Below are positions 8,645 to 51,844 of a DNA stretch of 64,000 bases, in pieces. How positions within the stretch are numbered: the stretch's first letter is position 1; each line of letters starts with the position of its first letter. This stretch comes from Trichomonas vaginalis G3 (Eukaryota > Parabasalia > Trichomonadida > Trichomonadidae). The DNA lies in contig NC_067208.1 of NCBI RefSeq assembly GCF_026262505.1, positions 3,791,962-3,855,961 on the forward strand, in the 5' to 3' direction. A program made the position numbers and the translations under genes. The notes under the pieces were generated by a model that did not search any database, was not told the DNA's origin, and was given only the letters and a program-made list of their open reading frames with translations.

Positions 8645-8733
8645 TCTTGAATTTTGTATAAAAAGCAACCGCCGGAAAACAGCGGGTTGGTTTTTTTAAA
8701 AAAATATTTTTTATTTTTATTGTAAGAACTGAA
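8645..8733 (+). promoter_or_regulatory. Partial P1 palindrome plus KilA-N promoter block
   Basis: Bases 8648-8690 contain a decayed P1 unit (TTTTGTATAAAAAGCAACCG followed by GGAAAACAGCGGGTTGG). Bases 8693-8733 are a T/A block with AAAAATATTTTTTATTTTTATTGTAAGAACTGAA before the ATG. The same T-rich block with TGTAAGAAC stands before the gene at 10,101 and, as TTTTGTATGTAAAGACA, before the KilA-N genes at 11,812, 12,512, 39,348, 40,044 and 50,463, suggesting a common promoter. Confidence 0.5.
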
Positions 8734-9396
8734 ATGACAGTCGAAGCAAAAACGTTCACGAACAAATCTAATGGCGAAACATTCACAAAAGGCACTTACA
8801 ACGGTATTGAAGTCTTACGTAGAGACAAGGATGGTTATATAAATGCAACAAATATGTGTCAGCAGTTTAGGAAAGACTTTAGAAGGTTGTTGGAAAATAA
8901 GTCCTGGGAAGAGTATTTTAAGGCATTTTGTGAAGAATATACCAACCCGCGGAATTCCGCGGGTTGCTTTTTATACACAGTTCATGCAGGAATTCCCGAT
9001 GAAATCAAACAGGTTAGAGGAACGTATGTAGACCCAAGACTCGTAAACTATATAGCAATGTGGGCTTCTCCAAAATATTGTATAGCAGTTGGAAAAATTC
9101 TGGACTCCATAGACAAGAAAGTTCATGAGAAATTAGATGAAGAAGAACTTGAAGATACAGCAGAGAATGCTAAACCTTTGTTCGAACAAGAAGTTAGAAA
9201 AATGCGCGAAAAACAAATAGAACATGAACGTGAGATATGTTCTGGTTATAGAGATTCTCCATACGAACTAGACCAATGGGAACAAGAAGATTTAAAGAGA
9301 GAATTTAGAGAATATGAACTCGCTAAAGTTTCATTAGAAGCTGCAGAAGAGAGGTTAAAAGTTTGGGGTCGTTTTGTACAAAAATATTGTGAGTAA
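8734..9396 (+). CDS. KilA-N domain DNA-binding protein 1, with in-frame palindrome
   Basis: The 220-residue intact frame has a KilA-N domain at ~20-125: a GIEVLRRDKDGYINATNMC strand-turn, FRKDFRRLLENKSWEEYF, then GTYVDPRLVNYIAMWASPKYC. The C-terminal ~80 residues are charged helices. KilA-N domains are DNA-binding modules of large DNA viruses and phages. Eighteen codons (8923-8976) between the two halves of the domain are a copy of the P1 palindromic repeat, in frame and without a stop. A tandem array of P1 lies 180 bp downstream of the gene. A regulatory DNA-binding role is likely; the target is unknown. Confidence 0.85.
   Translation: MTVEAKTFTNKSNGETFTKGTYNGIEVLRRDKDGYINATNMCQQFRKDFRRLLENKSWEEYFKAFCEEYTNPRNSAGCFLYTVHAGIPDEIKQVRGTYVDPRLVNYIAMWASPKYCIAVGKILDSIDKKVHEKLDEEELEDTAENAKPLFEQEVRKMREKQIEHEREICSGYRDSPYELDQWEQEDLKREFREYELAKVSLEAAEERLKVWGRFVQKYCE
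8923..8976 (-). repeat. P1 palindromic repeat inside KilA-N-1
   Basis: These 54 bp match, inverted and almost base for base, the units of the array at 9580-9903. The core at 8943-8966 is a perfect 24-bp palindrome centred on GGAATTCC with arms CAACCCGC. The flanks GCATTTTGTGAAGAATATAC and GCTTTTTATAC are shared with the array units. Being 54 bp, it keeps the reading frame. Confidence 0.9.
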
Positions 9397-9424
9397 ATGA
9401 ACCATTTCTTTTTATTGAATTCGG

Positions 9425-9572
9425 CAAAAATATATTTTAGGTGGAACCAGGTCCCTCGGTCCCTCGGTCCCTCGGTCATTTTAACTTCTCTGAAAAAGTG
9501 TGACAACATGACATTTTGACAACAACACAGGAGATAGATTTCTTCGTCAATGTTTTGTTGAGACTTCTTCGT
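9425..9572 (+). repeat. Left arm of ~150-bp inverted repeat around the 10,101 gene
   Basis: This segment (AAAATATATTTTAGGTGGAACC, three GTCCCTCG units, a TTTTGACAACAACACAGGA stretch, then TCTTCGTCAATGTTTTGTTG) recurs in inverted orientation at 11,211-11,361. The pair encloses the P1 array, a P3 copy and the gene at 10,101-11,015, so the 1.9-kb block may be or have been a cassette. Confidence 0.8.
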
Positions 9573-9579
9573 ATATGTT

Positions 9580-9903
9580 TTGTATAAAAAGCACCCGCCG
9601 GAATTCCGCGGGTTGGTATATTCTTCACAAAATGCTTGTTTTGTCAAGACTTTCATCGTCAATGTTTTGTATAAAAAGCAACCGCCGGAATTCCGCGGGT
9701 TGGTATATTCTTCACAAAATGCTTGTTTTGTCAAGACTTTCATCGTCAATGTTTTGTATAAAAAGCAACCGCCGGAATTCCGGCGGGTGGTATATTCTTC
9801 ACGAAATGCTTGTTTGTCAACACTTTCATCGTATATGTTTTGTATAAAAAGCAACCCGCGGAATTCCGCGGGTTGGTATATTCTTCACGAAATGCTTGTT
9901 TTG
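9580..9903 (+). repeat. P1 palindrome tandem array, four ~87-bp units
   Basis: Four head-to-tail units each contain TTTTGTATAAAAAGCA, an 18-24-bp palindrome centred on GGAATTCC, GGTATATTCTTCAC(A/G)AAATGC and a CTTGTTTTGTCAAGACTTTC linker. The arms vary between units (CCGCC, CCGCGG and CCGGCGGG forms), partly with matching change on both sides. Frames open across the array on both strands are low-information translations of the repeat and are not called as genes. The unit is the same sequence found inside KilA-N-1. Confidence 0.9.
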
Positions 9904-9960
9904 AGGTCGAGCCACTTTTGGCTCCACCTGTTTTTTCAACCAAAGCTCATTTTTTTCGGC

Positions 9961-10020
9961 AAAAATATATTTTAGGTGAAGTGGTGAGATCTCACCTCTT
10001 TTTTCACCTCTTTTCTCACC
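9961..10020. repeat. P3 palindromic repeat, copy 2
   Basis: AAAAATATATTTTAGGTGAAG leads into GGTGAGATCTCACC and two CACCTCTTTT echoes. It sits 80 bp upstream of the gene at 10,101, between its promoter block and the P1 array. Confidence 0.75.
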
Positions 10021-10100
10021 CGTTGAATTTTCATGAATTTTCCCGAAATAAAAAAAGTTAGTTTTTTAAAAAAAATATTTTTTATTTTTATTGTAAGAAC

Positions 10101-11015
10101 ATGTTAGCAACAACAGCACCAAACTCGTTAGTCATGAACCCAACATCTATGTTAGTAGAGATGAAAAGCTTCATTCCTTCTTCATATACTTTCGAAACAG
10201 AAATCCAGAAGATAAAGCAAGAACTTCTCCAAGGAGATTTAGACTGTAGTGCAAAAGATGAAGAAAATGAAGAATATCTTTATGACATGCAGGATATTAT
10301 TGACCATTTACCTAAACTTCCTGAAATACAACAACAAAAGCTTACTATTCCAGAATTCGATGAAATAGAAGTCAAAGCAACTGACTCAGTAGAAATAAAG
10401 AAGTTCATACGTAAGGTAAACTATGAGTTTCTTGGATTTCATTGCAACCACAAAGTCATGGACAAAGACTGCGATATGGTATATAAAAATGTTTCTGACA
10501 TATACAAATCTGAAGAATTTAAGACCTACGACAACTTTGTTTCGTTAGTTGCAAAATGTGTATGGCAGATAAGAGATAAAGATAAAAGAGGTAAAGTATG
10601 GAACGAACAGATAAAACCCGCAACTTTTGAGTTAAAGAAAACCATTGACGCCTTAGTTGTACTTGCAGGTTTTATTTCAATGTACAATGCTAAAATGAAC
10701 CCACAATGTTCAAAATGTAAAGCAGCAATGAGGAAATATAACTACTCCGTCAAAGAGATAGAAAGAATGCGAAACGACTATGCTGATTTAAAGGAAGAAG
10801 CAGAGAAACCAGCAGAAGATAAAATGGACATGTTGACATTTCTGAACAAAAACTATCCAACAGCTGACGATTTCCTTCTTTCAGATGTCAAGAAGAAATA
10901 TAAAGAAACCTTCGGCATTGTTAAAACATTCGATGTACTGACAGAAGAAATAGAAGCTACAAAACTGTTTAGGATTTCAAATATACATCGTACAATTCAT
11001 GTAAGACGCTTGTGA
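10101..11015 (+). CDS. Conserved 304-residue accessory protein with CxxC pair
   Basis: An intact frame follows the accessory-type promoter block (10,060-10,098, TTTTTTATTTTTATTGTAAG). The product is mostly helical and acidic with a central NPQCSKCKAAMRKY motif, which could be half of a zinc site, and a coiled-coil stretch after it (KEIERMRNDYADLKEE). A very similar protein is encoded at 51,916-52,797 in the inner Maverick, although the core genes of the two elements are highly diverged. Both copies are bordered by P3 repeats. The family is not recognised; a role linked to KilA-N cassettes is suggested only by neighbourhood. Confidence 0.75.
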   Translation: MLATTAPNSLVMNPTSMLVEMKSFIPSSYTFETEIQKIKQELLQGDLDCSAKDEENEEYLYDMQDIIDHLPKLPEIQQQKLTIPEFDEIEVKATDSVEIKKFIRKVNYEFLGFHCNHKVMDKDCDMVYKNVSDIYKSEEFKTYDNFVSLVAKCVWQIRDKDKRGKVWNEQIKPATFELKKTIDALVVLAGFISMYNAKMNPQCSKCKAAMRKYNYSVKEIERMRNDYADLKEEAEKPAEDKMDMLTFLNKNYPTADDFLLSDVKKKYKETFGIVKTFDVLTEEIEATKLFRISNIHRTIHVRRL

Positions 11016-11193
11016 AAAAGAGGTGAGAAAACAGGTGAGAAAAGAGGTGAGATCTCACCTCTTCACCTAAAATATATTTTTGCTGAGTAAAATGACATAT
11101 GGAACACGTACTTTTTCAGTAAGGACATATGGGGTGAGAAAAGAGGTGAGAAAAGAGGTGAGATCTCACCTCTTCACCTAAAATATATTTTTG
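11014..11193. repeat. Two P3 repeats in tandem, copies 3 and 4
   Basis: Each has GAGGTGAGAAAACAGGTGAG-type echoes followed by GGTGAGATCTCACC and CCTAAAATATATTTTTG, that is, inverted relative to copies 1 and 2. The first begins at the stop codon of the 10,101 gene. Between them lie 50 bp with a TGACATATGG/GGACATATGG echo and no gene. Confidence 0.75.
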
Positions 11194-11210
11194 TCTGATT
11201 TACGCTCATT

Positions 11211-11361
11211 GACGAAGAAGTCTCAACAAAACATTGACGAAGAAGTATATTTCCTGTGTTGTTGTCAAAATGTCATGTTGTCACCATTTTCAAAAAGATG
11301 TTAGTTGACCGAGGGACCGAGGGACCGAGGGACCTGGTTAGATCTAAAATATATTTTTGCT
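11211..11361 (-). repeat. Right arm of the ~150-bp inverted repeat
   Basis: This is the inverted partner of 9425-9572: GACGAAGAAGTCTCAACAAA, the TTGTTGTCAAAATGTCATG stretch, three GACCGAGG units and a closing TAAAATATATTTTTGC. Small indels separate the two arms. Confidence 0.8.
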
Positions 11362-11384
11362 GAAAAAAATGACCAAATTTCATG

Positions 11385-11724
11385 AATTTCCTCATATGTT
11401 TGCGACCCGCGGAAAACCGAGGAACGAGATTCCGTACGAAAATCGTGAAAAAACTCTATGAAAATCGTGGAAAAATGCTACCCTCGAAAAACCGAGGATA
11501 GAGATTCCGTACGAAAATCGTAAAAATTTGCGACCCCGGTTTTTTTCGGGGTCGCCTAAAACACATGAAAATCGTGAAAAATTGCGAGTACGTTAAAAAC
11601 CGTAGTCGCCTAAAACTCATGAAAATCGTAAAAAAAACTCTATGAAAATCGTGAAAAAATGCTACCCCGACTTTTTTCGGTCTTGCCTAAAACTCATGAA
11701 AATCGTGAAAAAAACTCTATGAAA
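11385..11724 (+). repeat. P2 hairpin-cassette array, five units
   Basis: About five hairpins of ~24 bp, each with a different stem (around CCCGCGGAAAACCGAGG, CTACCCTCG/CGAGGATAG, CGACCCCGG/CGGGGTCG, CGAGTACG/CGTAGTCG and CTACCCCGA/TCGGTCTTG), are separated by a conserved spacer close to CCTAAAACTCATGAAAATCG plus TGAAAAA. Individual units match the variable segments of three different KilA-N genes: the first matches 40,251-40,297 with 62,633-62,660; the third matches 12,733-12,789; the fourth matches 50,151-50,208. The array stands directly before the KilA-N/GIY-YIG-like gene at 11,812. Confidence 0.85.
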
Positions 11725-11766
11725 TCATATCTTTTATACAAGATAGAAAAAATAAAAACAACGTTA

Positions 11767-11811
11767 GTTTTTTAAAAAAAATATTTTTTATTTTGTATGT
11801 AAAGACAGGAA
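11767..11811 (+). promoter_or_regulatory. Accessory-gene promoter block before 11,812
   Basis: The block is TTTTTTAAAAAAAATATTTT, then TTATTTTGTATGTAAAGACAGG, then the ATG. The TTTTGTATGTAAAGACA core is shared, at nearly the same distance, by the starts at 12,512, 39,348, 40,044 and (other strand) 50,463. Confidence 0.5.
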
Positions 11812-12423
11812 ATGACAAGCACTGAGTTTGAAACAGTTAAAAAGATAGACAATGAGACCAAGGTGGTTAGAATAGGTGATTTAAACGTAAGATACTCAAA
11901 GAAATACAAAAAATATTCTTTGTCAGACATTTTAACACTATCTGGAAAGAGAGCAAAGGACTGGGTTAGAAATGCTTCAACTCAGAAAATTTTGACAAGA
12001 AATCCTGAGCTTTTGATATCGGTAAGATTCTGTGGAACTACAGCATATCTTATAGACAAAAGTCTTATACCAGTAGTTTTGTTATGGTTAGACCCAGTTG
12101 TTGGATATAATTTCATAACATATGGTTCATTCGATACGGAACGTTGCAGTGAAGGCTTACTTTACATCGTTCAGAAACCGAAGGACTTCAATACAAAGAG
12201 ATATAAGATAGGAAGAACATATAATATAACTAAAAGATATGACAGTACAGTCAATAGAGTTAAGGTTGTGTTTGTAAATGATATGAGAGCTGCTGAAACA
12301 GAACTGCTTGAAAAGTTTGAGAAAATGTATGGTGCTCCCACGAAAGGTAAAGAAACGTTTGAAGTAGATGAGATCGACAAAGCTATAAAATTATTTGACG
12401 AAGTTGCTGAAAAATACATGTAA
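11812..12423 (+). CDS. KilA-N protein with T5orf172/GIY-YIG-like C-terminal domain
   Basis: The 203-residue intact frame starts with a compact KilA-N-type region (~15-105: VVRIGDLNVRYSKKYKKYSLSDI, GKRAKDWVRNASTQKIL, YLIDKSLIPVVLLWLDPVVGYN). Residues ~120-195 (GLLYIVQK, then YKIGRTYNITKRY, MRAAETELLEKFEKMYG, KGKETFEV) have the pattern of the T5orf172 domain, a relative of GIY-YIG nucleases: YIV in place of GIY, a KIGRT strand, and a late Glu in ETFEV. A DNA-binding protein with possible nuclease activity is likely. The gene follows the P2 hairpin array directly. A broken close relative is at 39,348. Confidence 0.8.
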   Translation: MTSTEFETVKKIDNETKVVRIGDLNVRYSKKYKKYSLSDILTLSGKRAKDWVRNASTQKILTRNPELLISVRFCGTTAYLIDKSLIPVVLLWLDPVVGYNFITYGSFDTERCSEGLLYIVQKPKDFNTKRYKIGRTYNITKRYDSTVNRVKVVFVNDMRAAETELLEKFEKMYGAPTKGKETFEVDEIDKAIKLFDEVAEKYM

Positions 12424-12511
12424 AGCGTTTATTTTTGGTCTTTTATACAAGATAGAAAATAACGCTAGTTTTTATAAAATATTTTTTTTTATTTTGTATG
12501 TAAGAACAGAA

Positions 12512-13336
12512 ATGTCAACAACAGAGAACACAACAACTGCTATCGTTCATGAAGCCATAAGTGAAGAATACGAGTGGGTTCAGTATAACAAACAGTTACG
12601 TCTCATTCGTTCGGTCAAAGATGACATGTACCAAATGCAAAGTATTTTGACAGCATGTTTTGCTCCAGATACTAAACACGCAGACGACTGGTTCAAAAAC
12701 CAAAGCACACAAGAACTTTTGAGTGAAATTTCTCTAGACCGACTTTTCTCGGGGTCGCCAAAACTCTATGAAAATCGTAAAAATTTGCCAAATGGTTTGA
12801 GAGGTTGGTATGTACATAGACTTCTTGTAAATGCTGTTGCAATGTGGGCTTCGCCTCGTTATGCTTGGTATATTTGCAGACTTCTTGACGAAATTCATAG
12901 ACAAGAACGTGAAGAGCTAGAGAACAAGCTTCAAGCAAAAGATGAAGTCATTGAAGCAAAAGACAAAAACATACAGAAAAGAATACCACGTTCGGTACCA
13001 AAAGGAAAGGAAAAGAACTATAAGTATATGATTTACACTGAAGAGATGGAAAATTAAGAAGACAGAGATATGGTTATGTTGCATTTAGTCAGAAGAAACA
13101 ACAAAAGCTTTTACGACCTTGCTAAGATTTACAAATCTGACAGAAATTGGTTCTATCGCGAAAACTTACCGATTTCAATGACACCGAATGAAGATGTTAA
13201 ACAGATAGTTCAAGATACGTTACCTCAAACACACTATGATATGAAAGGTTGTACAATACTTACATTCAAAGAAGATTTGCCGCTACTGAAAGAAAAGATA
13301 ACAGAGTATTTTGACAACTTCAAACAAGCAGAGTAA
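12512..13336 (+). pseudogene. KilA-N protein 2 with internal P2 cassette and premature stop
   Basis: The start at ATG 12,512 is set by the accessory promoter block. It reads NTTTAIVHEAISEEYEWVQ, QLRLIRSVKDDMYQMQSI, DDWFKNQSTQELL, then the P2 segment, then GWYVHRLLVNAVAMWASPRYAW, the second half of a KilA-N domain. After a coiled region, an in-frame TAA at 13,055-13,057 replaces a codon present in the homologues. The same frame then continues (MVMLHLVRRNNKSFYDLAKIY... to 13,336) with the conserved C-terminal domain also seen at 49,603 and 62,633. It is one gene, broken by a nonsense change. Confidence 0.8.
12733..12789 (+). repeat. P2 cassette inside KilA-N-2
   Basis: GACTTTTCTCGGGGTCGCC and AAAACTCTATGAAAATCGTAAAAATTTGCC match the P2 array at 11,522-11,580 and 11,636-11,660. 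The segment falls at the junction between the two halves of the KilA-N domain, the same place where P1 lies in KilA-N-1. Confidence 0.85.
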
Positions 13337-13394
13337 ATGAACCATTTATTTTTCAAGCTTGACACCAAAGATGGCTCAGGTAGCTCTAGATGGT

Positions 13395-13700
13395 AAATTG
13401 TCTTGTCAAATCCTTCTGGCATTCCGAGTCCTTCCTTCTGGCATTCCGAGTCCTTCTGGCATTCCGAGTCCTTCCTTCTGGCATTCCGAGTCCTTCCTTC
13501 CGACAGGAAAAGTTTTTCTTTCCGACAGGAAAAGTTTTTCTTTCCGACAGGAAAAATTTTTTCTGTTGTCCGTCCGTAAACCATTCAAATTTTCGAAAAT
13601 TGAGAACTTTTTGGCCGACCTTCAGAAAAAGTTTTTCCTTCCGACAGGAAAAGTTTTTCTTTCCGACAGGAAAAGTCCTTCCTTCCGACAGGACACAAAC
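13395..13700 (+). repeat. Two interleaved short tandem repeat blocks downstream of KilA-N-2
   Basis: Bases ~13,403-13,497 repeat CCTTCTGGCATTCCGAGT about four times. Bases ~13,497-13,560 and 13,625-13,692 repeat TTCCGACAGGAAAAGTTTTTC about six times; each unit holds a TTCC(GACA)GGAA mini-palindrome. Frames run through the block on both strands but only translate the repeat, so I call no gene in it. It lies beside KilA-N-2 as P1 and P2 lie beside the other two KilA-N genes. Confidence 0.8.
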
Positions 13701-40297: not shown

Positions 40298-40972
40298 AGT
40301 TAGTATACAAGTCTCGTGTACAGAGGCACTGCGTTCCTCCGTACGCAATACTTGTGAATTTGACACTTTACAAAACCGTTAACGTATATTTTACAACATG
40401 AACGCAAAAACCAACTTAACCTTAAATATTTATAAAGCCGCCAACCACTTCACCTCACTACTGTAAAAAATAAACGTTCTCACTTACAAAAGTATTGCAA
40501 CTCTTCCCATTGCTGTGCTTCACACAATAGTTCATATTCTTCAGTATCGCTGCTGTCGCTCCAATCGTCAGAGTCAAAATCACTGTCAAAATGAATGTTA
40601 GTAAGTTTTGACAAAGCTAATGAAACACGTTTACCGTTTGTATCGTATGCTTTATAAACTTTCCATTCTTCATTCCTTCATAAACGCTCAAACTAACTTT
40701 ACCCTTTCTCCCTCGTATCTGATAGAATGTATTTTCACGAGAAGAAAGAACAAATTCTTGAACTCATGACCGTTGTAGTTTGTTATCTCAATAGTTTTCG
40801 TCATTTATATAAAAATAAAATAAAAAATAAACTTAAAATTAATGATATCACCACCCTCACACGTATGAAAACATAGCACAAAAATAAATTTAGGTGAAGT
40901 GGTGAGATTTCACCTCTTTTTTCAGCCTGTTTTTTCACCCACTTGAATTATTGCTTTATAACTCTCTTCCTT
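40298..40972 (+). repeat. Left terminal inverted repeat of Maverick CD
   Basis: Nearly identical to the inverse of 61,950-62,627 until the 40,956-41,169 gene begins to differ. It contains a broken copy of the terminal-repeat gene and a P3 palindrome (40,878-40,940). Confidence 0.95.
40480..40804 (-). pseudogene. Terminal-repeat gene, left copy, frameshifted
   Basis: Same as 62,119-62,445 but two bases are missing near 40,655 and there are changes near 40,740. The right copy is intact, so the element keeps one working version. Confidence 0.8.
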
Positions 40973-41169
40973 TCTCCAACTCTTCTAACTTCTTCTTAAG
41001 TTCAGCAATGTTGTCCTCATGAAGTTTAATCTTCCTTAATATACCTTCTCTATCTAATGGTTGCTTTATCTTTCTAAACTGAACTCTACCATCCTTCATA
41101 GTATGAACGTAAAAAACCTTCTGGAACCGCTCCTGATTTAATGTATTCTACCAAAAACTTTTGTTTCAT
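40956..41169 (-). pseudogene. Small coiled-coil gene reaching into the terminal repeat
   Basis: It starts MKQKFLVEYIKSGAVPEGF, shifts frame near 41,115, then reads GRVQFRKIKQPLDREGILRKIKLHEDNIAELKKKLEEL and stops at 40,956-40,958, inside the inverted repeat. The C-terminal part is a short coiled coil. Function unknown. Confidence 0.5.
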
Positions 41170-41261
41170 TGCTTCAGTGACTTAGTCGTCATTCAATCAA
41201 ATAAAAATTTTAATATTAATAAAAATAACGTTATTTTTTCAGTAAGGAGAACGCAGGAGTT

Positions 41262-41681
41262 TTACGATTTTATTTGAGGAGTAGGTTCTGGTTTAAATGT
41301 TGGAGTCGGTTTAGGAGTTGACTTTTGAACAGGAGTTTGTACTTTCATAGGTTCAGGAGTCATTGAAGGTGTTGTTTGTGATGGTGTCGGAGTTTGTTTA
41401 ACTTCAGCTACTTCAGTATTATTTACAACATTTGCTTTATTTCTTTTCAACATCATAACTGCTCCTGCTGTAGCTAGCAAACCTAGTGGGAGACCATATT
41501 TTATATAAGGACTTGACCAAATGCTATTTTTGACAGGAGCTGGTGGAACACCTAACCTTGGTGAGACTGCTCTTTGCCATTGTGCAGCTCGTAAGAAATA
41601 TTCAATAGGTGCTCCATAATCGTTTGGTAAAGTTTGTTTCATAGATGGTGAAGGTTCACGAGAGCTTGATGAAGAACTCAT
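41262..41681 (-). CDS. Single-pass membrane protein with Pro/Thr-rich tail
   Basis: The 139-residue intact frame has a Ser-rich start, a conserved-looking block (YGAPIEYFLRAAQWQRAVSP), one hydrophobic segment at ~58-76 (YGLPLGLLATAGAVMML) and a long Pro/Thr/Lys tail with repeats (TPSMTPEPMKVQTPVQKSTP). It sits downstream of the capsid gene, so it is probably a virion membrane or vertex protein. That is an inference. Confidence 0.6.
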   Translation of the reverse strand: MSSSSSSREPSPSMKQTLPNDYGAPIEYFLRAAQWQRAVSPRLGVPPAPVKNSIWSSPYIKYGLPLGLLATAGAVMMLKRNKANVVNNTEVAEVKQTPTPSQTTPSMTPEPMKVQTPVQKSTPKPTPTFKPEPTPQIKS

Positions 41682-41758
41682 TTATAAGCTTTAAAAATAA
41701 ACGTTCATCCTTTATTCCTCACTGTCGTCCGTAGCTAAGTTATAGTCATCTAATCTTA

Positions 41759-43282
41759 TTATTGGGATTCCATTAGCACGCACTGAATGGCAAAGCAACA
41801 ATCCCTCATAAATCCAATAAGTGGCTTTGGTACATTTTCAGTTGCTAGTTCAATAGGTCCTTTAACAGACAATTTGTATGTTATTGGAGCAGTAGATGTT
41901 TGACCTTGCTGGAAGCAAAAGTCCACTTCTGTTGGAAAACCACATAAGAAATGTGTGTTGTCATAGCTATCCCATTTATGTTCCACACTACCATCATCCA
42001 CCAATGACCTCATAACATCTTCATTAAATCCTATCATATCATTGTTTGTATTGCAAGCGTTCGCAACCATTTCATAAAATACAGGTCCATATGATTTTTC
42101 AGGTTCTGCAGGCATATTTCCATAAGCTCCCATGGAAAGCTGAAGATATTTAAACTTAGGGTTCTCAAAATTAACATAATAGTTGTCTTTCTTTCTAAAT
42201 AGTGCCCAAATACTTTTAACATTAATAGGCGTATAAGCTGCTGTAAATGTTGCACTTGAACTATCTGTATTCTTTGAGAATGAACCGTCCATAGGAATCC
42301 AATCCATAACTTTAACAGGAAAACATAAAGCCTCGTTTGTATAATGTTCTACAAGTTCTGTATAAATGTTAGGGTCTAAAGAGAATGACTTTGGATGAAT
42401 GAAACATTCATTAAAATCCATCTTTGTTCGAAATAGTTGCTGGGTTACAGTTGTAATAGTAACTGTTCCACTAGCTTCTACTGCCTTCGTTATCATAGTG
42501 AATGGTTCATTCCATGGAACAAATTTATTTGTCGGTGGATTTGAATCTGAAGCAAATGCAACTTTAAGAGTTGGATTGAAAGCAATGATATCATTTACAG
42601 ATATAGATGTGCATTGTAAGGCGTCGCTACTGAACTTTACTTTAAGCTGAATGTTTCCTGCAAAAGCTGGAATAAATCTTATAGCTTCTAATGGAAAATT
42701 TCTAACAGGAATTCTTAAACGAAGCTTAAAATCAAATGATTTTCCTGCTGTAATTGGACCACTAACAATTTGTCCTGTTCTGCATGTTCCCGAATGACTC
42801 CATACATCTTCATGTCGAGTCTTTGAGAAAACATCTACTTTCTTTATTTGTTCGGTAGTTTGTGAGTTTGAAGTTATATATGCTTCTTCTCTTGCGTTGT
42901 CTTGAGAATATACGATACGACCATTTGCAAGGATTTGATATCCAGCAACTGCATAGAAAGCGTCATCGAAACCAATCCAAAATCCTGGTGGGTTTGTTTT
43001 ATTGGAACCTGAACCAATTTCTTTATCTACAATAAATTGACCTTCCATTTTATACGTAATGAATGTATTGTAAAGGTCCAACATATTTTCACCAGGAGGT
43101 GAGAGATTGAATGTTACCCATGTGTTATCTTTAGCAGTTCCAGGTTGTGATGGAATCTTTGCGTCAGAATATTTTCTATTAGTGTCACCAATTTGAACTG
43201 CATTGTCTATGATATCGAAATATGAGCGAATCTGATGAATATGCTCTGCTGGAGTAAATTCGTTTAGCTGTTCGTTCTGCAT
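41759..43282 (-). CDS. Major capsid protein candidate of Maverick CD
   Basis: The 507-residue intact frame starts MQNEQLNEFTPAEHIHQIRSYFD. It is beta-rich and shares the FKLRLRIPVRNFPLEAIRFIPAFAGNIQLKV block with the A protein at 18,928, at about the same distance from the start. The length fits a double jelly-roll capsid protein. The TTTTTATCTGAAG-like box upstream (43,283-43,305, minus strand) is of virion-gene style. Confidence 0.75.
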   Translation of the reverse strand: MQNEQLNEFTPAEHIHQIRSYFDIIDNAVQIGDTNRKYSDAKIPSQPGTAKDNTWVTFNLSPPGENMLDLYNTFITYKMEGQFIVDKEIGSGSNKTNPPGFWIGFDDAFYAVAGYQILANGRIVYSQDNAREEAYITSNSQTTEQIKKVDVFSKTRHEDVWSHSGTCRTGQIVSGPITAGKSFDFKLRLRIPVRNFPLEAIRFIPAFAGNIQLKVKFSSDALQCTSISVNDIIAFNPTLKVAFASDSNPPTNKFVPWNEPFTMITKAVEASGTVTITTVTQQLFRTKMDFNECFIHPKSFSLDPNIYTELVEHYTNEALCFPVKVMDWIPMDGSFSKNTDSSSATFTAAYTPINVKSIWALFRKKDNYYVNFENPKFKYLQLSMGAYGNMPAEPEKSYGPVFYEMVANACNTNNDMIGFNEDVMRSLVDDGSVEHKWDSYDNTHFLCGFPTEVDFCFQQGQTSTAPITYKLSVKGPIELATENVPKPLIGFMRDCCFAIQCVLMESQ

Positions 43283-43309
43283 GTATTTACTTCAGATAAA
43301 AATATCTAT

Positions 43310-43743
43310 TTACTTCATTATTCTCACTCTTCTTCTTGGCATTCGTGGTGGAAGTTGTTTCTTGACATTTTCAATGAACTGTACATTCTCTTTTGTCTCA
43401 ACTTCTTTCACTGGCGGTCAGGGTTCTTTGACTCGGTTTGCTTTTCAATGAAATTCACGAACTTTGCAATAAGCTCTTGGTTCGTTATTGAAAGAACATC
43501 TGGCTTCTTTTCTTCTTGTTCTATTGACTTTTCAGTTTGAACAGAAGGTTTTATATGGGCTTCGTGGGCTTCGCCCTTGCCATGCACCTTAATGTTGTCG
43601 CTCTCTGCATTCGCTAATGGAACCTTTCTTTTTCTTACATATATTTTACCATCTTTACTCTGACTTACATAATAGAAAGGATGTTGTATTCCTCTGGCGT
43701 CATTTAATATAATAGACTCTCGTTCTGATTTTGACAAGCTCAT
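43310..43743 (-). pseudogene. Virion-cluster protein with GC palindrome, one frameshift
   Basis: The frame reads MSLSKSERESIILNDARGIQHPFYYVSQSKDGKIYVRKRK, then an acidic region, to a stop at 43,408. A second frame continues without gap (VKEVETKENVQFIENVKKQL, PRMPRRRVRIMK) to 43,310-43,312, so one base was lost near 43,410. HGKGEAHEAH in the middle comes from a P4-type GC-rich stretch (43,554-43,586: GGGCTTCGTGGGCTTCGCCC). Unknown family; divergent from the 43,789 gene. Confidence 0.6.
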
Positions 43744-43788
43744 TTTACATCGGTTAAAGTTTTAATTTAGTTTTTTATCTACAGTCAA

Positions 43789-44049
43789 ATGACTCAGACA
43801 AGCCCTACGGACAAGACCCAAGGGGTCATAGATGTTGAAGCATTGAAGAAAGAAATTCGTGAGCAAATTTTATCCGAACTGAAGGAACAAAAACAAGAAC
43901 AAAAGCCAGAGAGACCAAAGAGAAAACTTAGTGAAAAACAACTTGCTGCATTAGCTGCTGGAAGACAAAAGAACCCACGTTTGCTGGCAAAGAAAGCTAG
44001 AGAAGAAGCTGAAGCAAAAGCTAAAGAAGCTGAAGCAAAGAAAGAGTAA
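43789..44049 (+). CDS. Small basic coiled-coil protein
   Basis: The 86-residue intact frame has an N-terminal acidic helix (VIDVEALKKEIREQILSEL), a basic middle (KPERPKRKLSEKQLAALAAGRQKNPRLLAKK) and an Ala/Lys/Glu helical end. Such short basic helical proteins can bind nucleic acid. The start follows TTTTTTATCTACAGTCAA, a virion-class box. Confidence 0.6.
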   Translation: MTQTSPTDKTQGVIDVEALKKEIREQILSELKEQKQEQKPERPKRKLSEKQLAALAAGRQKNPRLLAKKAREEAEAKAKEAEAKKE

Positions 44050-44073
44050 ATGGTTTATTTTTATCCGAACTAA

Positions 44074-44931
44074 ATGTATAGACAAATACCTTTATCTGTT
44101 GCGTTCAGTAGTGAAAACCCTGACGTCAAAATAAAGGGGAACAGAGTAACGTTTAAGTTTCCAACAGACTGGATTGTGAACATAAATGAAGAGAAGTACA
44201 TTGGCATAACATCTATGTATATAACACGTGCTTTCAGAAAGGTTGACTTTATACTTCAAGTCGAGATAGAAAATGACGAACAGTCTTTAAGCGCCCAAAA
44301 CATTCACATATACAAATACTTTAAAGACGATACAACATTGTTGCAATGTATGATTTCATTTAATGAGATGTTCGAGAAAAAGTTCAACATTGAAGTACAA
44401 ACTTTACAGCCTTTACGTGAGTTTCTTGCACAACTGAAAGAAGAAGGTAGTCAGCCACAACTTATAGACTTTCATTATGAATTTAATGAAAATGAAGATG
44501 GAACTCATGACTGTCAATTCATTGTATTCTCACCATTCAATGAAGTCGCTAAAGAGAAAAAAAATCCATTACGTATAAGGTTTCAAATCTCTGAACCAAG
44601 TGATGATTTTAAGAATGTTTTCAATTATGATGCAATGCTTCCGAGGAAAAATGAATTTTCAAAGATTGTAACACCTGGCATTTGGGATAGAAAGCAAGCT
44701 ATATTATATTCAAACTTAAGTAAAGGAGTTGAAAATGAGTTCATTGGTCATACAAGAACTTCACCACTTCCTAACCCTAAATACTATAAATTAACTGGCT
44801 TCAATCGTGAGTTTTGGATAGACATGTTCTCCACTCATGACCATAAATGTCCAGTGTTCTTACCTCCAGACCATAAGGACTGTCTCTACATTGAAGCACA
44901 ACTCTTAAACTCTACCATCGCAGTATTGTAA
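44074..44931 (+). CDS. Minor-capsid-like protein of CD, first copy, intact
   Basis: The 285-residue frame has VTFKFPTDWIVNINEEKYIGITSMYI (the F-x-x-P-x-x-W ... K-x-I-G-I block), a beta-rich middle, FNYDAMLP and a closing FNREFWIDMF ... DCLYIEAQLLN. It resembles 7724-8584 and 28,119-29,000 in layout, so CD has two members of the family (this one and 60,345). Two minor capsid proteins would be in line with penton plus accessory vertex proteins; inference only. Confidence 0.6.
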   Translation: MYRQIPLSVAFSSENPDVKIKGNRVTFKFPTDWIVNINEEKYIGITSMYITRAFRKVDFILQVEIENDEQSLSAQNIHIYKYFKDDTTLLQCMISFNEMFEKKFNIEVQTLQPLREFLAQLKEEGSQPQLIDFHYEFNENEDGTHDCQFIVFSPFNEVAKEKKNPLRIRFQISEPSDDFKNVFNYDAMLPRKNEFSKIVTPGIWDRKQAILYSNLSKGVENEFIGHTRTSPLPNPKYYKLTGFNREFWIDMFSTHDHKCPVFLPPDHKDCLYIEAQLLNSTIAVL

Positions 44932-44957
44932 AATCTACGCTAGCTTTATTTTTATCA

Positions 44958-45000
44958 CGAATGACCTCATTCATGACCTCATTCATGACCTCATTGCTGA
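44958..45000 (+). repeat. Short tandem repeat ATGACCTCATTC
   Basis: Three to four copies of a 14-bp unit (ATGACCTCATTC plus AT) lie between the convergent minor-capsid-like and polymerase genes; a further ATGACCTCA stands at 45,011. Possibly a terminator region. Confidence 0.7.
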
Positions 45001-45015
45001 CAAAAATAAATGACC

Positions 45016-48000
45016 TCAGAACTTCAACTTACGAATAAAGCTTGTTTTAGTCGTTATTGAAAAGTTGAACTTTTCAGCAAAGCAAGGTTGACATGACTTA
45101 CATAAGTCGAATGCAATCTCTTGACCATCATGAAGTGCTTTGTAAAGTTTCATTAAACTGAACTCAGAGTCTTTGTCATATGTTCCAACAGGTATGTGAA
45201 TGTTCTTATCTTCATTGTAATAGCATTGTATAGCTTCAGGAAACATTTCATTAGCGGTTAAAGCAATAACATCTTGCTTCACGCCTTTCATTCTGCAGTG
45301 AAATGCAACTTCATTTAAATCGTTAGTGAGTAAGTCTATGTAGGTCTTCTTTCCACAGAAAATACTTTTATAAGCTAAACTTTGTTTTCCAGGTGTTATT
45401 TCTGCAAAGTCGCTATGAAATTGACCAAGGTTCTTTCCTATAAGTTCGCGACCATATCTCTTTTTAAACTCTGCTGCAAGCTTTGGGATGTCTTCATTAT
45501 ATAAGTGCATACTGTCGGTATCCTGGTAAAAGATTTGAAGTCCCATGTCCTCTGCAGTACAGAATACTTCATTCATAATACGTTTTGACATAGACAGAAT
45601 ATTAACACCAAGTGGACAGAAGTTAAAGTGTCTGCAAATGCTTTTCGTTAGCTTGAAAATAGTTTTATCTGAACCATCCAAACCTTCGAACTTCACTATA
45701 TGGTTGTAATTTCTTATAGCATATCTTATAGCATCTTTGTCATTTACTATGGTTATTTTTGACTCAATAGGAGATAGAATAGTTTTGCCATAAATGCTGT
45801 TCAGAATGAGTTTTATAATTTCTTGTAAGGGGTTTCCTTCTTTCTTATACTTTAACCTTAACTCAAACAACTTCTTTACTTCATCTCTTATTCTCATATC
45901 TCTGTTTCCATCGTAATAGTATCCTTGCAACACTTCACATTTGACACCTTGATATTTTATGAGGTCTTGTAATGTTATATGGTCAACATGCATGAGACAG
46001 CAAGTGTTTGAACTTCTTGGAACGTTAAGTTCTGGATTTAGTTCAGGGTCGCAAACTATTAAATGAAAGTGTCTGGGTATACCAATCTCTGTTATCTTAA
46101 TGAGAACAAAGAAGCCAGACATAAACTTTTCACCAATGGGTTCCTTTTGGTCGTCATCGAATAAATGTCTCATGAGATACTCTGTGCTTAGCATCTCATC
46201 CTTCAATACTTTTGGAATTCCTTCTAAAGTATACAATCTTGCTATAGCTGAAGGATATAATGAAACAGTGTCGAAGTCAGCAATGAGTTTCTTTTTGCTC
46301 TTTTGTTTCATGTTATCTGACAACATACATCTTCCACCTTGAATGCATCTCGAAATAAATTCTCTTGGTTTATTTGAGAGGTCATAAAGATTTCCATTCG
46401 GGAAGTATACTCTGTTCTCAAACAATTTGTTAGCAATAGAACAAATACTAACGTAGTCATAAACGTTTAAATCAAACTCTTTCAATAAGTCATTGCGGAA
46501 CTTTACAAAACCTTCTCTTAAAATTCTTACATCTTGTTTGCATAAAACGTGCTATATTTTTCTAAGTCGAAGTGGTTTTCATCTATTCTGCAACCTTTGA
46601 TGGAATCTATGTTCTTCATAAATGTATCTGCATCATGGATAAACTTACATGCTTCAGAAATGACACCAGTTCTGTTGTCATTTGCTAACAAAACACTGCT
46701 GTAGTAGTTATATGGAAATACTTCTTTCGGTCCTGTTTGTAAGTTAAACATAGCAGGAAATAGTTTAAGCTTCTTATTTATAACACTGTAAGAGTCTTTT
46801 ATAATAATTGCCCGTCCTTTATATAAGCCAGTTATTTGCATTGTTCGTGAACCTTTAATGATGGGAGTTCCTTTCACTTCTGTCATGTGTCTTAAGATGA
46901 AGTTTATGTCATAACTGAGGTTGTGAAAATATATTAAACTCTTGTCAGGAAGTCTTTCCAAAAATTCTGTTGCACAGTTTTGACCCCAAATGCTTTCACT
47001 AACTGAACCATCTTCACTGTCATAACAGATGTTAAAAGCTTTATGAAAGCCATCCGTACTACACTCAAAGTCAGCAAAGAAAACGTGCTCAGGTATGAAT
47101 TTACATTTAGCTTTATTTACTTCTTTTGACTCTGCTTTCTTCTTCAGTTGTACACAATACTTTGGAGCATATGTCAAATCTTTAAATGGTGCAAGGTTCT
47201 GTTTATATAAGTCAGTAGTATATGTGAAAAGTTCTCCATAAGAAATAGGTTCGAAATATTTGCACTCCCACAATGTTTTCATAACATCCCATAACGGTGT
47301 TGTTCTATCATAACGAACTACATATTTATCTTCTCTCTTTGTATAAATCTTCATCTGTTTCTCAATGTTCATTCCACCACAAGCTTTGAGAATTTCTTTA
47401 TAGTTTCGAATGAAGTATGTTGTCATTGGTAATCTTTCATTTAGCATGTAGTGGTCTTCAACAAGAAGTAAGTCAATAGTTCTAACAGTTTCGCATTCTT
47501 TTGGTATATATCTCTTTATTTCATTATGTCTTGAGTCATTGAAATAACCAATGGTAACATTAAATGATATACCTGTTGCGTCAGAAATTTCTTGTACTTT
47601 ACTTTGAGGAAAGTCTCTAACACGAATGACTTCTCTCATGTGGTCAATAGTTTCTTCATTTACTCCAGCCTGAATGCAAGCATAAACGAAACAATTGTCC
47701 TCTGTCATAAGTGTTGCAGTTCTTTTGTTCAGTTCATTGAAGATTTGGTAGCGTTCAAGATTTATAGGTAATGTGCAAAGATACTTCCAGAACTGACCGC
47801 TTCTCTTCTTATAAAACTTCTTTTCACCAAGGATTTCATTCCAGAAGTCATCTATATCTTGTTTATCTCCTGTTTGTTTAAGTCTGTTCAATAATCTTTT
47901 CTGTCTTTCTGTCAGTGTGCTTTCATCTCTATATGGTCTCTTTTTTGGTTTGCCTTTCTTTACATCTGACATCGTTAAGCCTTCATATTCTGTTAAATCA

Positions 48001-48932
48001 TACATCTTTATTTCGGTAAGATTCTTTATGTTTGTCAAGAAGAAGTCATAGTGCATTTCAACAATACCTGCGGCATTTGCTTCTATCTCTGATATAAAGT
48101 TCTCCTTCAAGAGCTGATGTAGTAATGTTCCAATATTATTGAGGTTTAACGTAGAACATTCATACTTTCCACCAAGTTTATAACATACCATCCATCTTTG
48201 TTGCGAGTTTATTTTAATTTTCTCTAAGAGTCTCATGAAAACCTTACCGAAATGTTTGTGTAAGTAGTCTCTGTTTGGTTCATCTAAAGCTTCGATGTTA
48301 AAGTCAATGAGTCTATTGCCTGACTTCACATTTCTCTTCCTATTCTCTTCATCTTTCTTTAACCATCTCTCACCCTCTTTTGGTTTGTCGTCAATGGAAC
48401 GAATGACATCGTTAGCTTTGCGAACTTGTTCTATAGCGCTCTTAAACATCTCTCTTCTCTGTTGTTTCACTGTGTCGTCTCTTCTTCTTGTTTCACCAAC
48501 GTTCGCATTTGTTATGTCAAACATCTCTTGACGAACATCATGCGAAAGAGCTTTACGAGTATGACCAACGTTCGCATTTGTTATGTCAAACATTTCTCTT
48601 CTTACTTCATGCGAAAGAGCTTTACGAGTATGACCAGCGTTCGCATTTGTTATGTCAAACATCTCTCTTCTTACTTCATGAGGTACTGAACGTCTATGAT
48701 ATAAGTCAATAGCAACGTCATTTAAAGGAAATGCTATTGCATGGACTTCGTCCTCGCGCGTTGCGGGCTTTATGAACTCATGAATTCTATCATAACTTAT
48801 TGCACCATTATAGTCTTTAATGAAGTCAGCGAGTGCTTTTTGTTTGTTGCGTAATGCTTTGCAACATCTATATTAGCTTCTGTAAGAAGTTGTTTTATTT
48901 CCGAGTGTTCAACTTAGACAACTTCGATACAT
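45016..48932 (-). pseudogene. polB: Protein-primed DNA polymerase B of Maverick CD, frameshifted
   Basis: The upper frame (48,662-46,527) holds a ~22-residue tandem repeat (MFDITNANxGHTRKALSHxVR, three copies), the N-terminal region (VYACIQAG; VEDHYMLNERL) and exonuclease motifs (FFADFECST; YFHNLSYDINF). The lower frame (46,485-45,016) holds motif A (DFDTVSLYPS), motif B (KLILNSIYGK) and motif C (YQDTDSMHLY), all canonical. The break near 46,525 falls in the third exonuclease motif: the next frame supplies DVRILREGF. Upstream codons (to ~48,932) extend the N-terminus, also with a shift. Total length ~1,200-1,300 residues is normal. This enzyme would copy the Maverick genome. Confidence 0.9.
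48739..48772. repeat. P4 GC-rich palindrome in the polymerase N-terminus
   Basis: GGACTTCGTCC followed by CGCGCGTTGCGGGC in otherwise AT-rich coding DNA. In the polymerase frame it codes PATREDEVHA. Confidence 0.5.
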
Positions 48933-49023
48933 CTTTAGTAGGAAATAAAAAAAATATTTTTGAAAAAATTAGATTAGATTTTTTTTAAGTTATTTTTCAA
49001 AATAATTTAATATTTTTATTTTA

Positions 49024-49498
49024 ATGAAACACATGCAAGATTGCAAGTTCTTTTCATACAATGCTCTCGCTACTGCCATCAAGAATGAGTTCAATAATGC
49101 TTCAAATGTTAATATTATCTTTAACAAGAAGTTTGTGAAAAGAATCTAAGTTTGGTCAGTATGTCAGACCATTAGCTATCGTCATTGACCGCAAACGTTA
49201 TACTTCACAAGAGTTAGCAGTAGTTTTGAAACAAAAGAGTTTCTTCGTGAATGTCAAAGATACTCATTATACTGTCATAAAGAACTCTAACGTTGACTTC
49301 TTCAGTATTGCTTTAAATCTTTCCGAACAGAAAGAATATAAGAAGGGTGAAATAAATGTGAAATATTATCCTTCATCTCTGAAGACAATAACGAACAAAG
49401 ATGTCATACAGAAATTCTTACCAAAGGTTGAAGAAGCTTCTATTGACATTGACGAAGGAAGTGAAATGGTTGAAGAAATTGACCCTGAAGCTATTTAA
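49024..49498 (+). pseudogene. Acidic-tailed protein beside polymerase, one frameshift
   Basis: Same as 63,435-63,908 (MKHMQDCKFFSYNALATAI ... IDIDEGSEMVEEIDPEAI), but one extra A near 49,141 breaks the frame; it is open again from 49,226. It is divergent from the polymerase gene, with ~90 bp of A/T between the two. Confidence 0.75.
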
Positions 49499-49499
49499 C

Positions 49500-49552
49500 C
49501 AAAAATATATTTTTGGTGAAGAGGTGAGATTTCACCTGTTTTTTCACCTCAT
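49500..49552. repeat. P3 repeat between convergent genes
   Basis: AAAAATATATTTTTGGTGAA, then GAGGTGAGATTTCACCT, starting at the stop codon of 49,498. Two CTTCGTTAATGTTGTCGTGA units follow at 49,558-49,602. Confidence 0.7.
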
Positions 49553-49602
49553 TCTCTCTTCGTTAATGTTGTCGTGACTTCTTCGTTAATGTTGTCGTGA
49601 CT

Positions 49603-50463
49603 TCATTCTTCCTCTTTGAAGTTGTCGAAATATTCTATTATCTTTTCTTTCAGTAATGGTAAGTCTTCTTTGAATGTAAGTATTGTGCAACCTTTGATGT
49701 CATAGTGTGTTTGAGGAAGAGTATTTTTGACAATTTCTTTTATTTGCTCATTCGGTGTCATTGAAATCGGTAAGTTTTCACGATAGAACCAGTTTCTGTC
49801 AGATTTGTAAATCTTAGCAAGGTCATAAAAGCTCTTGTTGTTTCTTCTGACTAAATGCAACATAACCATATCTTTATCTTCTTCTTTCTCCAACTCTTCA
49901 GTATATATCATATACTTATAACTCTTTTCCTTTCCTTTTGGTACTGAACGTGGTATTCTTTTCTGTATGCTTTTGTCTTTGGATTCAATGACTTCATCTT
50001 TTGCTTGAAGTTTCTTTTCCATCTCTCCACGTTCTGCTTTATATAGTTCATCTAACATCATGAAAATATAACAAGCATAACGAGGTGAAGCCCACATTGC
50101 TACAGCATTTACTAAAAGTCTATGAACATAATATCCTCTCAAACCGTTTGGCAATTTTTCACGATTTTCATAGAGTTTTGGCGACTGGGATTTTTTACCT
50201 ACTCGCTGTTCTTCACTGTTTTCAGAAAAAAGTACGTCTCGCTGTGCTTCACTTAATAGTTCTATGGTGCTTTGGTTCCTAAACCAGTCTTTAGGAAGCT
50301 TAGTATCTGGAGCAAAACAAGCCGTCAAAATACTTTGCATTTGGTACATGTCATCTTTGACTGAACGAATGAGACGTAACTGTTTGTTATATTGTATGTA
50401 CTCGTATTCTTCATTTATGACTTCATGAACGATAGCAGTTGTTGTGTTCTCTAATGTTGACAT
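49603..50463 (-). CDS. KilA-N protein of Maverick CD, intact
   Basis: The start at 50,463 (MSTLENTTTAIVHEVINEEYEY) is fixed by TTTTGTATGTAAAGACAG just upstream. The KilA-N halves are RLIRSVKDDMYQMQSILTAC...DWFRNQSTIELL and GYYVHRLLVNAVAMWASPRYACYIF. Between them lies a P2-type variable segment (50,151-50,208). A coiled linker and the C-terminal domain (HLVRRNNKSFYDLAKIYKSDRNWFYRENLPISMTP ... ILTFKEDLPLLKEKI) follow. It is the only whole gene of this subtype in the window. Expected role: DNA binding in regulation or element control. Confidence 0.85.
   Translation of the reverse strand: MSTLENTTTAIVHEVINEEYEYIQYNKQLRLIRSVKDDMYQMQSILTACFAPDTKLPKDWFRNQSTIELLSEAQRDVLFSENSEEQRVGKKSQSPKLYENREKLPNGLRGYYVHRLLVNAVAMWASPRYACYIFMMLDELYKAERGEMEKKLQAKDEVIESKDKSIQKRIPRSVPKGKEKSYKYMIYTEELEKEEDKDMVMLHLVRRNNKSFYDLAKIYKSDRNWFYRENLPISMTPNEQIKEIVKNTLPQTHYDIKGCTILTFKEDLPLLKEKIIEYFDNFKEEE
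50151..50208 (-). repeat. P2-type cassette inside the CD KilA-N gene
   Basis: Read on the minus strand: AGCGAGTAGGTAAAAAATCC, CAGTCGCC, then AAAACTCTATGAAAATCGTG. The fourth unit of the 11.4-kb array reads TGCGAGTACGTTAAAAACCG, TAGTCGCC, then the same spacer. Confidence 0.8.
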
Positions 50464-50570
50464 ATCTGTCTTTACATACAAAATAAAAAAATAAATAAAA
50501 ATAAAATTAGCGTTATTTTTTCTGAGATAAACACTATTTCTTCACAACATTAAATTTTATCCTGTATGAA

Positions 50571-50945
50571 ATGACTTTAAAAAGATTATTGACTGACTTC
50601 GAATACTATCTCATTGACGCACTGACAGACCCTCAAAACTGTGTTGAAAGTTCTTTAAGCTTTAAGATTGAAGGTACGACGCATTTTGTCTTCACTTACG
50701 TATTGAAAGAATATGACCGTTATCATAACGAAGTGAATCAAACACTAATAAAATTTGTAGATAAAAAATTGGTTAACAATGAATATTTTAAACGTGAAGA
50801 CCCAAACACTGCTGGAGATGATGAAGAATACAGACAAGTTATTGAAAAAAATAACGCAAGATTAGATGCAATAGAAAAGAAGTTTAATGAATGTCTTACA
50901 AACACGTATGAATATCTTATGCAGTGGGAAGCCAGATGGAAATAA
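50571..50945 (+). CDS. Conserved 124-residue Maverick protein
   Basis: Intact frame after a TTTTATCCTGTATGAA box. FVFTYVLKEYDRYHNEVNQTLIKFVDKKLVN corresponds to the same region of 14,707. Its C-terminus is a helix (ARLDAIEKKFNECLTNTYEYLMQW). A regulator or replication accessory protein is possible; no domain is recognised. Confidence 0.65.
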   Translation: MTLKRLLTDFEYYLIDALTDPQNCVESSLSFKIEGTTHFVFTYVLKEYDRYHNEVNQTLIKFVDKKLVNNEYFKREDPNTAGDDEEYRQVIEKNNARLDAIEKKFNECLTNTYEYLMQWEARWK

Positions 50946-50984
50946 ATTTACGTCAAATATGCAATTTATAAAATCTTATGTCGA

Positions 50985-51060
50985 CAGGCTACGTAGCACA
51001 GTGGTCTAAGGTGGTGTTATGGAGGGGTCAGAGTCTGTGGTTCGAACCGCGACAGCGCCG
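50985..51060 (+). tRNA. tRNA-like sequence with A and B boxes, probably degenerate
   Basis: TAGCACAGTGG (50,994-51,004) fits the tRNA A box and GGTTCGAACCG (51,039-51,049) fits the B box at normal spacing, and T-rich DNA follows from 51,061. A clean cloverleaf does not form: the acceptor strands (GGCTACG and CAGCGCC) pair poorly, the T stem works only with a six-base loop, and no convincing anticodon stem is seen. It is likely a tRNA relic or a polymerase III promoter-like element. A hairpin with TCTTCCACGGGAA arms lies at 51,126-51,190. Confidence 0.3.
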
Positions 51061-51125
51061 TATTTTCTTATTTTCTTTGTTTGTCTTGTTTGTCGTGAAT
51101 AAAAAGTGTCATAAAAGTGCTCTAT

Positions 51126-51190
51126 CTTCCACGGGAATAAATAAAAAATTTACTTTATTTCTTCTTTATTTCTTTGTTCCCGTGGAAGAA
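51126..51190. repeat. Hairpin with 13-bp perfect arms
   Basis: TCTTCCACGGGAA at 51,126-51,138 and TTCCCGTGGAAGA at 51,178-51,190, with an A/T-rich inner part that also pairs partly (AATAAA/TTTATT). It lies in the gene-free 50,946-51,341 interval after the tRNA-like sequence. A weaker echo (CTCGTGGAAGC) is at 51,272. Confidence 0.7.
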
Positions 51191-51836: not shown

Positions 51837-51844
51837 TTAATTAA

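Follow-up and report, generated by a model that had tools for sequence, protein, structure and literature searches.

In silent-cassette antigenic variation, non-expressed copies lie beside a gene and the variable part of that gene is replaced as a module, and in coding minisatellites, or variable number tandem repeats (VNTRs), the reading frame is kept within genes and length classes arise. PARCEL elements (PMC2996958) are tandem in-frame repeats of variable number with dyad symmetry in coding DNA, which in some taxa are linked to mobile elements and some of whose open reading frames (ORFs) were proposed as variant reservoirs. Rickettsia palindromic elements (RPEs; Ogata 2000, 2002, via PMC10969869) place palindromic DNA in frame within proteins and also occur outside genes. 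Here we compare with these systems a 64,000-nucleotide stretch of Trichomonas vaginalis G3 (C6:3791962-3855961, hereafter called the window), which by its gene content and terminal inverted repeats is rich in Maverick/Polinton elements, and in which non-coding arrays repeat the DNA that encodes a variable loop of KilA-N domain proteins. The genome searched comprises 180.85 Mb in 86 contigs.

This arrangement is real and unusual, and it is undescribed as far as the open-licence literature searched shows. An initial annotation of the window had stated that no such system was known for KilA-N proteins, and we likewise found none in the titles and abstract openings of open-licence literature on KilA-N, Trichomonas and Mavericks. 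With moderate confidence, we favor an account in which the promoter arrays are derived from genes and their sequences are exchanged by ordinary ectopic recombination. Specifically, the arrays would be non-coding tandem amplifications of the DNA encoding a variable mid-domain loop that precedes a conserved G-x-Y-V motif and probably sits about where fungal relatives carry a DNA-reading wing. Copies of the loop stretch, taken from the genes, would have reached sites upstream of Maverick genes and multiplied there in units of about 87 nucleotides (nt; array P1) or 54 nt (array P2), many of them predicted to form hairpins. In one KilA-N family the unit also recurs in frame within the gene, one to three times, and forms a coding minisatellite. 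Among the thousands of Maverick copies in a nucleus, loops and units may be exchanged continually, probably mostly from gene to gene and occasionally between array and gene, often with breaks at the hairpin centre, and such exchange would alter the protein loop as a module. The units and where they stand, the origin of the P1 unit in the gene, the modular loops and one clean cassette swap are observed directly; the identity of the wing, the recombination mechanism and the effect on DNA binding are inferred. That the arrays are regular donors, or that there is dedicated switching machinery, goes beyond the evidence and is not established.

KilA-N loop copies in promoter-proximal arrays

The segment shared between P1 and KilA-N gene A (the ORF at 8734) corresponds to residues 64-81 of the protein, a variable stretch before a GTYV motif at residue 96. 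In fungal relatives, the wing lies before the equivalent GTWV motif. P1 consists of four units of about 87 nt each (9553-9903). Each has a 55-nt core that matches the opposite strand of gene A at 8923-8977, with identities of 98, 96, 95 and 89%, so that the match proposed initially between P1 and this gene holds. The proposal that units of P2 match the segments of different KilA-N genes is likewise borne out, with three genes matched at 82-93% identity. Positions 11384-11430 and 11476-11505 resemble the gene half at 40026 (85% and 83%), 11501-11530 the gene half at 62559 (93%), 11541-11585 and 11667-11711 gene B at 12512 (87% and 85%), and 11566-11635 gene C at 49603 (82% over 71 nt). Dinucleotide shuffles of P2 gave any match at 1e-4 in 0 of 100 cases. 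Across the whole window, the motif GAAAATCGTRAAAA with at most one mismatch has 9 matches where 0.28 are expected, all confined to P2 and two KilA-N genes. Arrays of the P2 type hold mixed cassettes, the stems of neighbouring units often being very different. The initial annotation had not remarked on orientation: the copies in P1 run antisense to their gene, those in P2 sense. At its end, P1 also carries the loop of a second KilA-N family (Table 1), which is present in 10 gene copies examined and in proteins P0004-P0072.

The common denominator of this system is the loop rather than a palindrome. The segment had been called palindromic in four KilA-N genes, yet a strong palindrome, perfect over 24 bp, is found in gene A alone (DNA folding z of -4.7), as opposed to z of -0.02 in gene B, which has no palindrome, and -1.0 in gene C, where it is weak. 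Folding of nine array units gave a z of -3 or better in four. A hairpin scan of the window (perfect arms of at least 8, loop of at most 10, 40% GC) located 19 hairpins, and the gene A palindrome is the only one of these that lies within any of the 39 listed ORFs. The segment listed at 40,044/62,633 does belong to a KilA-N loop, but the loop is that of a single gene split by a 22.3 kb Maverick.

The P1 units extend beyond the palindrome into recognizable protein-coding sequence, with codons for AFCEEYT before it and FLY after it. The corresponding residues are VFSCEYT...FMY in Tritrichomonas musculus (P0079) and AFCDEYT...FHY in Histomonas (P0086), with loops of similar length. Because the flanks of the unit are thus protein sequence that is recognizable in other trichomonad genera, the P1 units derive from the gene. 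An A-run in the loop has a length of five in all 79 parsed gene loops; among 198 array units, 151 have this length (p 5e-8). Gene loops are held in frame by constraint, and array units drift.

These observations also bear on whether the repeats might be mobile palindromes of the RPE type or of the miniature inverted-repeat transposable element (MITE) type, inserting into coding and non-coding sites alike. Short hairpin repeats do occur both inside and outside genes here. However, within the window they are confined to KilA-N genes and to arrays or partial units near them, so that the many unrelated host genes of such elements were not found, and the relatives of gene A in other genera keep a segment of similar length with similar flanks, with no empty, element-free site among them. 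Given this flank conservation and the restriction to KilA-N in the window, we regard mobile palindromes as highly unlikely.

The arrays are promoter-proximal, lie upstream of four gene types, and occupy similar positions among the copies sampled. After exclusion of overlapping loci, 41 loci with a parsed gene A loop were counted, of which 39 have one to eight units downstream of the gene and 22 have a full unit upstream (the window has a partial upstream unit only), although many of these loci were chosen through a search with array units and the counts do not represent a frequency. From the last downstream P1 unit to the start of the DUF3839 gene, the distance is 172-188 or 251-274 nt in 36 of 37 loci. 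For the family of genes B and C (family C), 31 loci were scanned for units by a GAAAAT motif (the window and 30 others), and at least two units outside the gene were found in 10 loci, one in 1 and none in 20, a scan that undercounts, since L008 and L017 scored none and have an upstream copy by alignment. In the 11 loci with units, a T5orf172 or KilA-N gene starts 85-208 nt after the last unit, as measured from the GAAAATCG mark of that unit. The upstream copy in L003 lies within a fragment of a KilA-N gene and is therefore debris. In L012, four 76-nt repeats of another type stand upstream of the KilA-N gene (2030-2258) and have only the GAAAATCG end in common.

This placement upstream of four gene types is what would be expected if the units were operators bound by KilA-N proteins, with the coding copy as their source or as an internal site. 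KilA-N is a DNA-binding domain, and according to one report the wing of the fungal relative PCG2 recognizes CGCG in the minor groove (PMC4333399), a sequence included in the palindrome arms AACCCGCGG. We nevertheless find operator arrays quite unlikely, given that the homology spans 55 nt including coding flank, that the two arms do not match in 119 of 197 array palindromes, and that the stems of neighbouring P2-type units differ as described above. Furthermore, the arm types of upstream units are uncoupled from the loop type of their own gene: the upstream unit equals the gene's own loop in 4 of 22 loci versus 3.5 expected, which argues against a coupled operator code.

Orientation invites another reading, in which antisense loop copies are a source of small RNAs (sRNAs) that silence the KilA-N genes carried by rival Mavericks. 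Of 136 P1 units, 135 run antisense to gene A; all exceptions seen (L110, L133 and L139) are upstream units. A published sRNA study (PMC7845603) reports that a higher antisense sRNA share goes with lower expression of T. vaginalis genes, and that 4,731 of 4,808 Mavericks and 2,546 of 3,183 KilA-N genes have sRNA reads. P2-type arrays, however, are sense, and the passages of that study consulted name no such arrays. We consider a role as sRNA source very improbable.

Loop evolution in two KilA-N families

In the gene A family, nt 221-264, which encode the loop, are among the most variable parts of the gene (the loop was parsed in 71 of 73 gene copies), and homoplasy is high along the entire gene. 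We rejected the idea that the loop evolves faster than the rest of gene A, as near-identical pairs change no more there than in several other blocks. Synonymous and nonsynonymous counts of 1/7 in palindrome codons and 23/44 in other codons are too few for a claim about selection.

The initial annotation had proposed that the arrays could be a library of cassettes for the variable loop, exchanged by recombination or gene conversion, or else remnants of past replacements, and it had looked to loops identical to array units as a check. In the library reading weighed here, the arrays would donate to the KilA-N loop by gene conversion and thereby switch DNA specificity. The gene loop equals a unit of its own downstream array in 19 of 39 loci versus 11.9 when shuffled (p 0.004). 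However, it equals a unit in the array of the nearest relative in 15 of 39 (own only in 12, neighbour only in 8), and because the relative's array matches nearly as often, the excess for the own array seems to be explained mostly by descent. A strict one-to-one pairing of loop and array, hinted at by the shuffles, is weakened by this control, and we set it aside.

The best sign of transfer from array to gene is a single base. An array-typical base CACGAAATGC beside the palindrome occurs in 90 of 198 array units versus 3 of 79 gene loops (L110, L131 and L132), two of which also have a hybrid palindrome of a kind frequent in arrays. On the gene side, the exact 24-nt pattern with this base has three occurrences in the genome, a search that misses genes with other flanking bases. 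Since the three genes have a 3' allele and related palindromes in common, they probably reflect one ancestral event. L118 likewise has a hybrid gene loop that is rare in genes (1 of 71) and present in 3 of 9 of its own units. Palindrome arms are matched in 66 of 162 cases in arrays versus 34.9 by chance and in 46 of 70 in genes versus 23.2, a coupling that is loose in arrays and tighter in genes, and hybrids are frequent in arrays, as if exchanges tended to break at the hairpin centre.

Family C presents a more modular picture. Its loop, parsed in 183 of 188 proteins, is a modular coding minisatellite: cassettes of 18 amino acids (aa; 54 nt) follow each other in frame, one to three per loop, in mosaic order, and the loop falls into length classes of 25, 28, 37, 43 and 55 aa. 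Of 398 protein pairs whose flanks share 98% identity or more, 105 have loops at least four edits apart, compared with 0-3 pairs for any 25-aa window of the flanks. This pair count is inflated by a database that holds one protein per 90% cluster and so favours differing pairs. At the DNA level, where the 30 best-scoring genome hits and the two window genes were parsed (32 of 32), 86 pairs have flanks at least 98% identical and the loop differs by at least 8 nt in seven, all of them L016 versus others. L016 carries the EISLDREFSVLHK cassette and its closest relatives carry EAQRDRLFSGSPK, while its flanks are 98.6% identical to those of L025, which makes this one clean cassette swap at constant flanks. 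In the gene A family, the discordance of the loop does not exceed that of some other polymorphic blocks. The L016 cassette is identical to gene L010 over 70 nt and diverges after that, as compared to 91% identity with its own array unit and 91-93% with the best non-gene copies over shorter or equal stretches, so that among the sequences compared a gene copy is the better donor.

In favour of the library proposal are the arrays of loop copies, the mixed P2 cassettes, the modular loops of family C, one clean swap, the array-type base in L110, L131 and L132, and the hybrid loop of L118. Against it stand the own-array excess largely common to the nearest relative, the upstream unit uncoupled from the loop, and an L016 swap that is identical to a gene copy. 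Moreover, 20 of 31 family-C loci have no unit by motif, despite the upstream copies aligned in L008 and L017, and in a published RNA-seq analysis only 1 of the 3,183 Maverick KilA-N genes of T. vaginalis analysed was counted as expressed at the mRNA level (PMC7845603). We regard a cassette library as possible but doubtful. In a bolder form, which strikes us as unlikely, a transposon would keep a functioning store of wing-loop cassettes in the promoters of its own genes, as copies of the DNA for the base-reading loop of its own regulator; conversion would re-arm the regulator, and one sequence would hold both specificity and potential sites.

Several points weigh against the gene-derived arrays and ordinary exchange that we favor. 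First, when a 660-nt gene A query is used, the non-gene matches among those listed fall solely on positions 188-273, and neutral recombination leaves unexplained why loop copies, and no other gene pieces, fill the arrays. Second, common descent of the elements alone would preserve array positions, but similar positions could instead stem from selection for a regulatory role. Third, the putative assignment of the loop as a wing leans on a weak sequence match to Mbp1 (E 0.034), which ends where the loop starts.

A modular, exchangeable loop at a likely DNA-reading site, together with copies of the loop DNA at similar positions in promoters, makes both array reading and loop conversion testable. 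If loops do read arrays, or do change by conversion, the regulators of a transposon family would have a new route to diversity. Should neither be the case, the locus would be a natural experiment on coding repeats that end up in promoters.

Features and setting of the window

Coordinates of the features discussed are collected in Table 1. The Maverick gene set of the window includes an integrase (rve), viral-type PolB (DNA_pol_B_2), A32-like packaging ATPase (Pox_A32), D5/VapE-like primase-helicase, KilA-N and DUF3839, and the first three of these, along with terminal inverted repeats, are the marks by which we assign membership in Maverick/Polinton. Four window proteins exceed the cut-off of 23.8 bits for Pfam PF04383 (KilA-N), and a genome scan with this profile gave 3,885 candidates with at least 150 scored matches. 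According to earlier reports, T. vaginalis has more than 1,000 KilA-N domains (PMC4862756) and hundreds of Maverick-Polinton elements (PMC10120064). Scans of IMG/VR gave no relatives, and Rfam gave nothing at gathering score for 8400-14000 of the window.

Table 1. Position, strand and basis of features in the window
Feature	Position	Strand	Basis
Partial P1 unit upstream of gene A	8652..8696	+	Repeat family D3
KilA-N gene A, 220 aa	8734..9396	+	PF04383 E 1.9e-25, residues 22-128; at least 150 genome copies
Gene A loop segment common to array P1	8923..8977	+	Alignment and folding; palindrome 8943-8966
Array P1: four copies of the loop, antisense to gene A	9581..9895	-	Repeat family and alignment
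Loop copy of second KilA-N family, reads GGAKSGSTSKQAF, at P1 end	9903..9935	-	ORF, family alignment; hairpin z -4.5
DUF3839 gene, P1 in its upstream region	10101..11015	+	PF12943 E 1.3e-156
Array P2 (sense): about five loop copies with matches to three KilA-N genes	11384..11711	+	
T5orf172-domain gene, P2 in its upstream region	11812..12423	+	PF10544 E 2.1e-8
KilA-N gene B (family C)	12512..13057	+	PF04383 E 1.4e-27; ended early by in-frame stop
Gene B loop, one 18-aa cassette and neighbours	12716..12800	+	Alignment, cassette parsing
N-terminal part of split KilA-N gene, broken within loop	40026..40297	+	
Maverick, 22.3 kb, inserted in loop of split gene	40298..62627	.	GAGAT either side; terminal inverted repeats 99.75% over 400 nt compared
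KilA-N gene C, two-unit loop	49603..50481	-	PF04383 E 1e-25
C-terminal part of same split KilA-N gene	62628..63206	+	PF04383 profile 59-106

Past the stop of gene B, the C-terminal part of the family continues in the same frame (13070-13336). The first 15 nt of the Maverick that splits the other KilA-N gene have 427 occurrences in the genome, and among the matches listed these often form pairs about 20-23 kb apart. The split gene raised the idea that loops are preferred Maverick landing sites, which we rejected: none of 24 other element ends had a convincing match to a loop or array, the weak match at one of them (L147, E 9e-5) lying outside the loop.

Near the arrays, inverted copies of 188 nt at 81% identity (9390-9577 and 11207-11394), with GGTCCCTC repeats, flank the DUF3839 gene on both sides, and 13411-13697 holds tandem repeats, each about 22 nt long, of the types CCGACAGGAAAAG and CTGGCATTCCGAG. 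The modules ATATATTTTAGGTG and GGTGAGATCTCACC recur next to Maverick genes, with exact sites in two lists (8588, 9430, 9965, 11064 and 11175; and 8606, 9983, 11046, 11157, 51309 and 51870), and stretches resembling them are found at 27300, 40879, 49500, 52954 and 61974. Elsewhere in the window, long perfect hairpins with arms of 22 and 26 bp stand at 24989-25040 and 36867-36926, and a MULE transposase-like ORF at 25796-26803. Proteins 1868-3334, 35212-35883 and 54475-57135 match the C-terminal domain of phage baseplate Gp10, and those at 1868 and 54475 additionally have phage-tail-repeat matches.

Comparison with known systems

As in silent-cassette antigenic variation, the variable part of the family-C protein changes while the rest stays constant, which is not the case for gene A. 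Unlike in that system, we found no predominance of transfer from arrays to genes. The 54-nt repeats described here resemble coding minisatellites, from which they differ in that KilA-N units also stand in the promoters of other genes. The nearest known kinds are PARCELs and RPEs. RPEs insert into unrelated genes (PMC10969869), whereas the segment described here lies within KilA-N genes only, as far as the window extends, and is ancestral to the gene. Tandem coding repeats are common to PARCELs and the KilA-N system. Dyad symmetry is strong in gene A, which has a single unit, absent in gene B and weak in gene C. PARCEL repeats (PMC2996958) are amphipathic units of 25 aa in ORFs without assigned function, some of them membrane-targeted; here, in contrast, the loop of a DNA-binding domain is built from units of 18 aa, and non-coding arrays of them stand at promoters.

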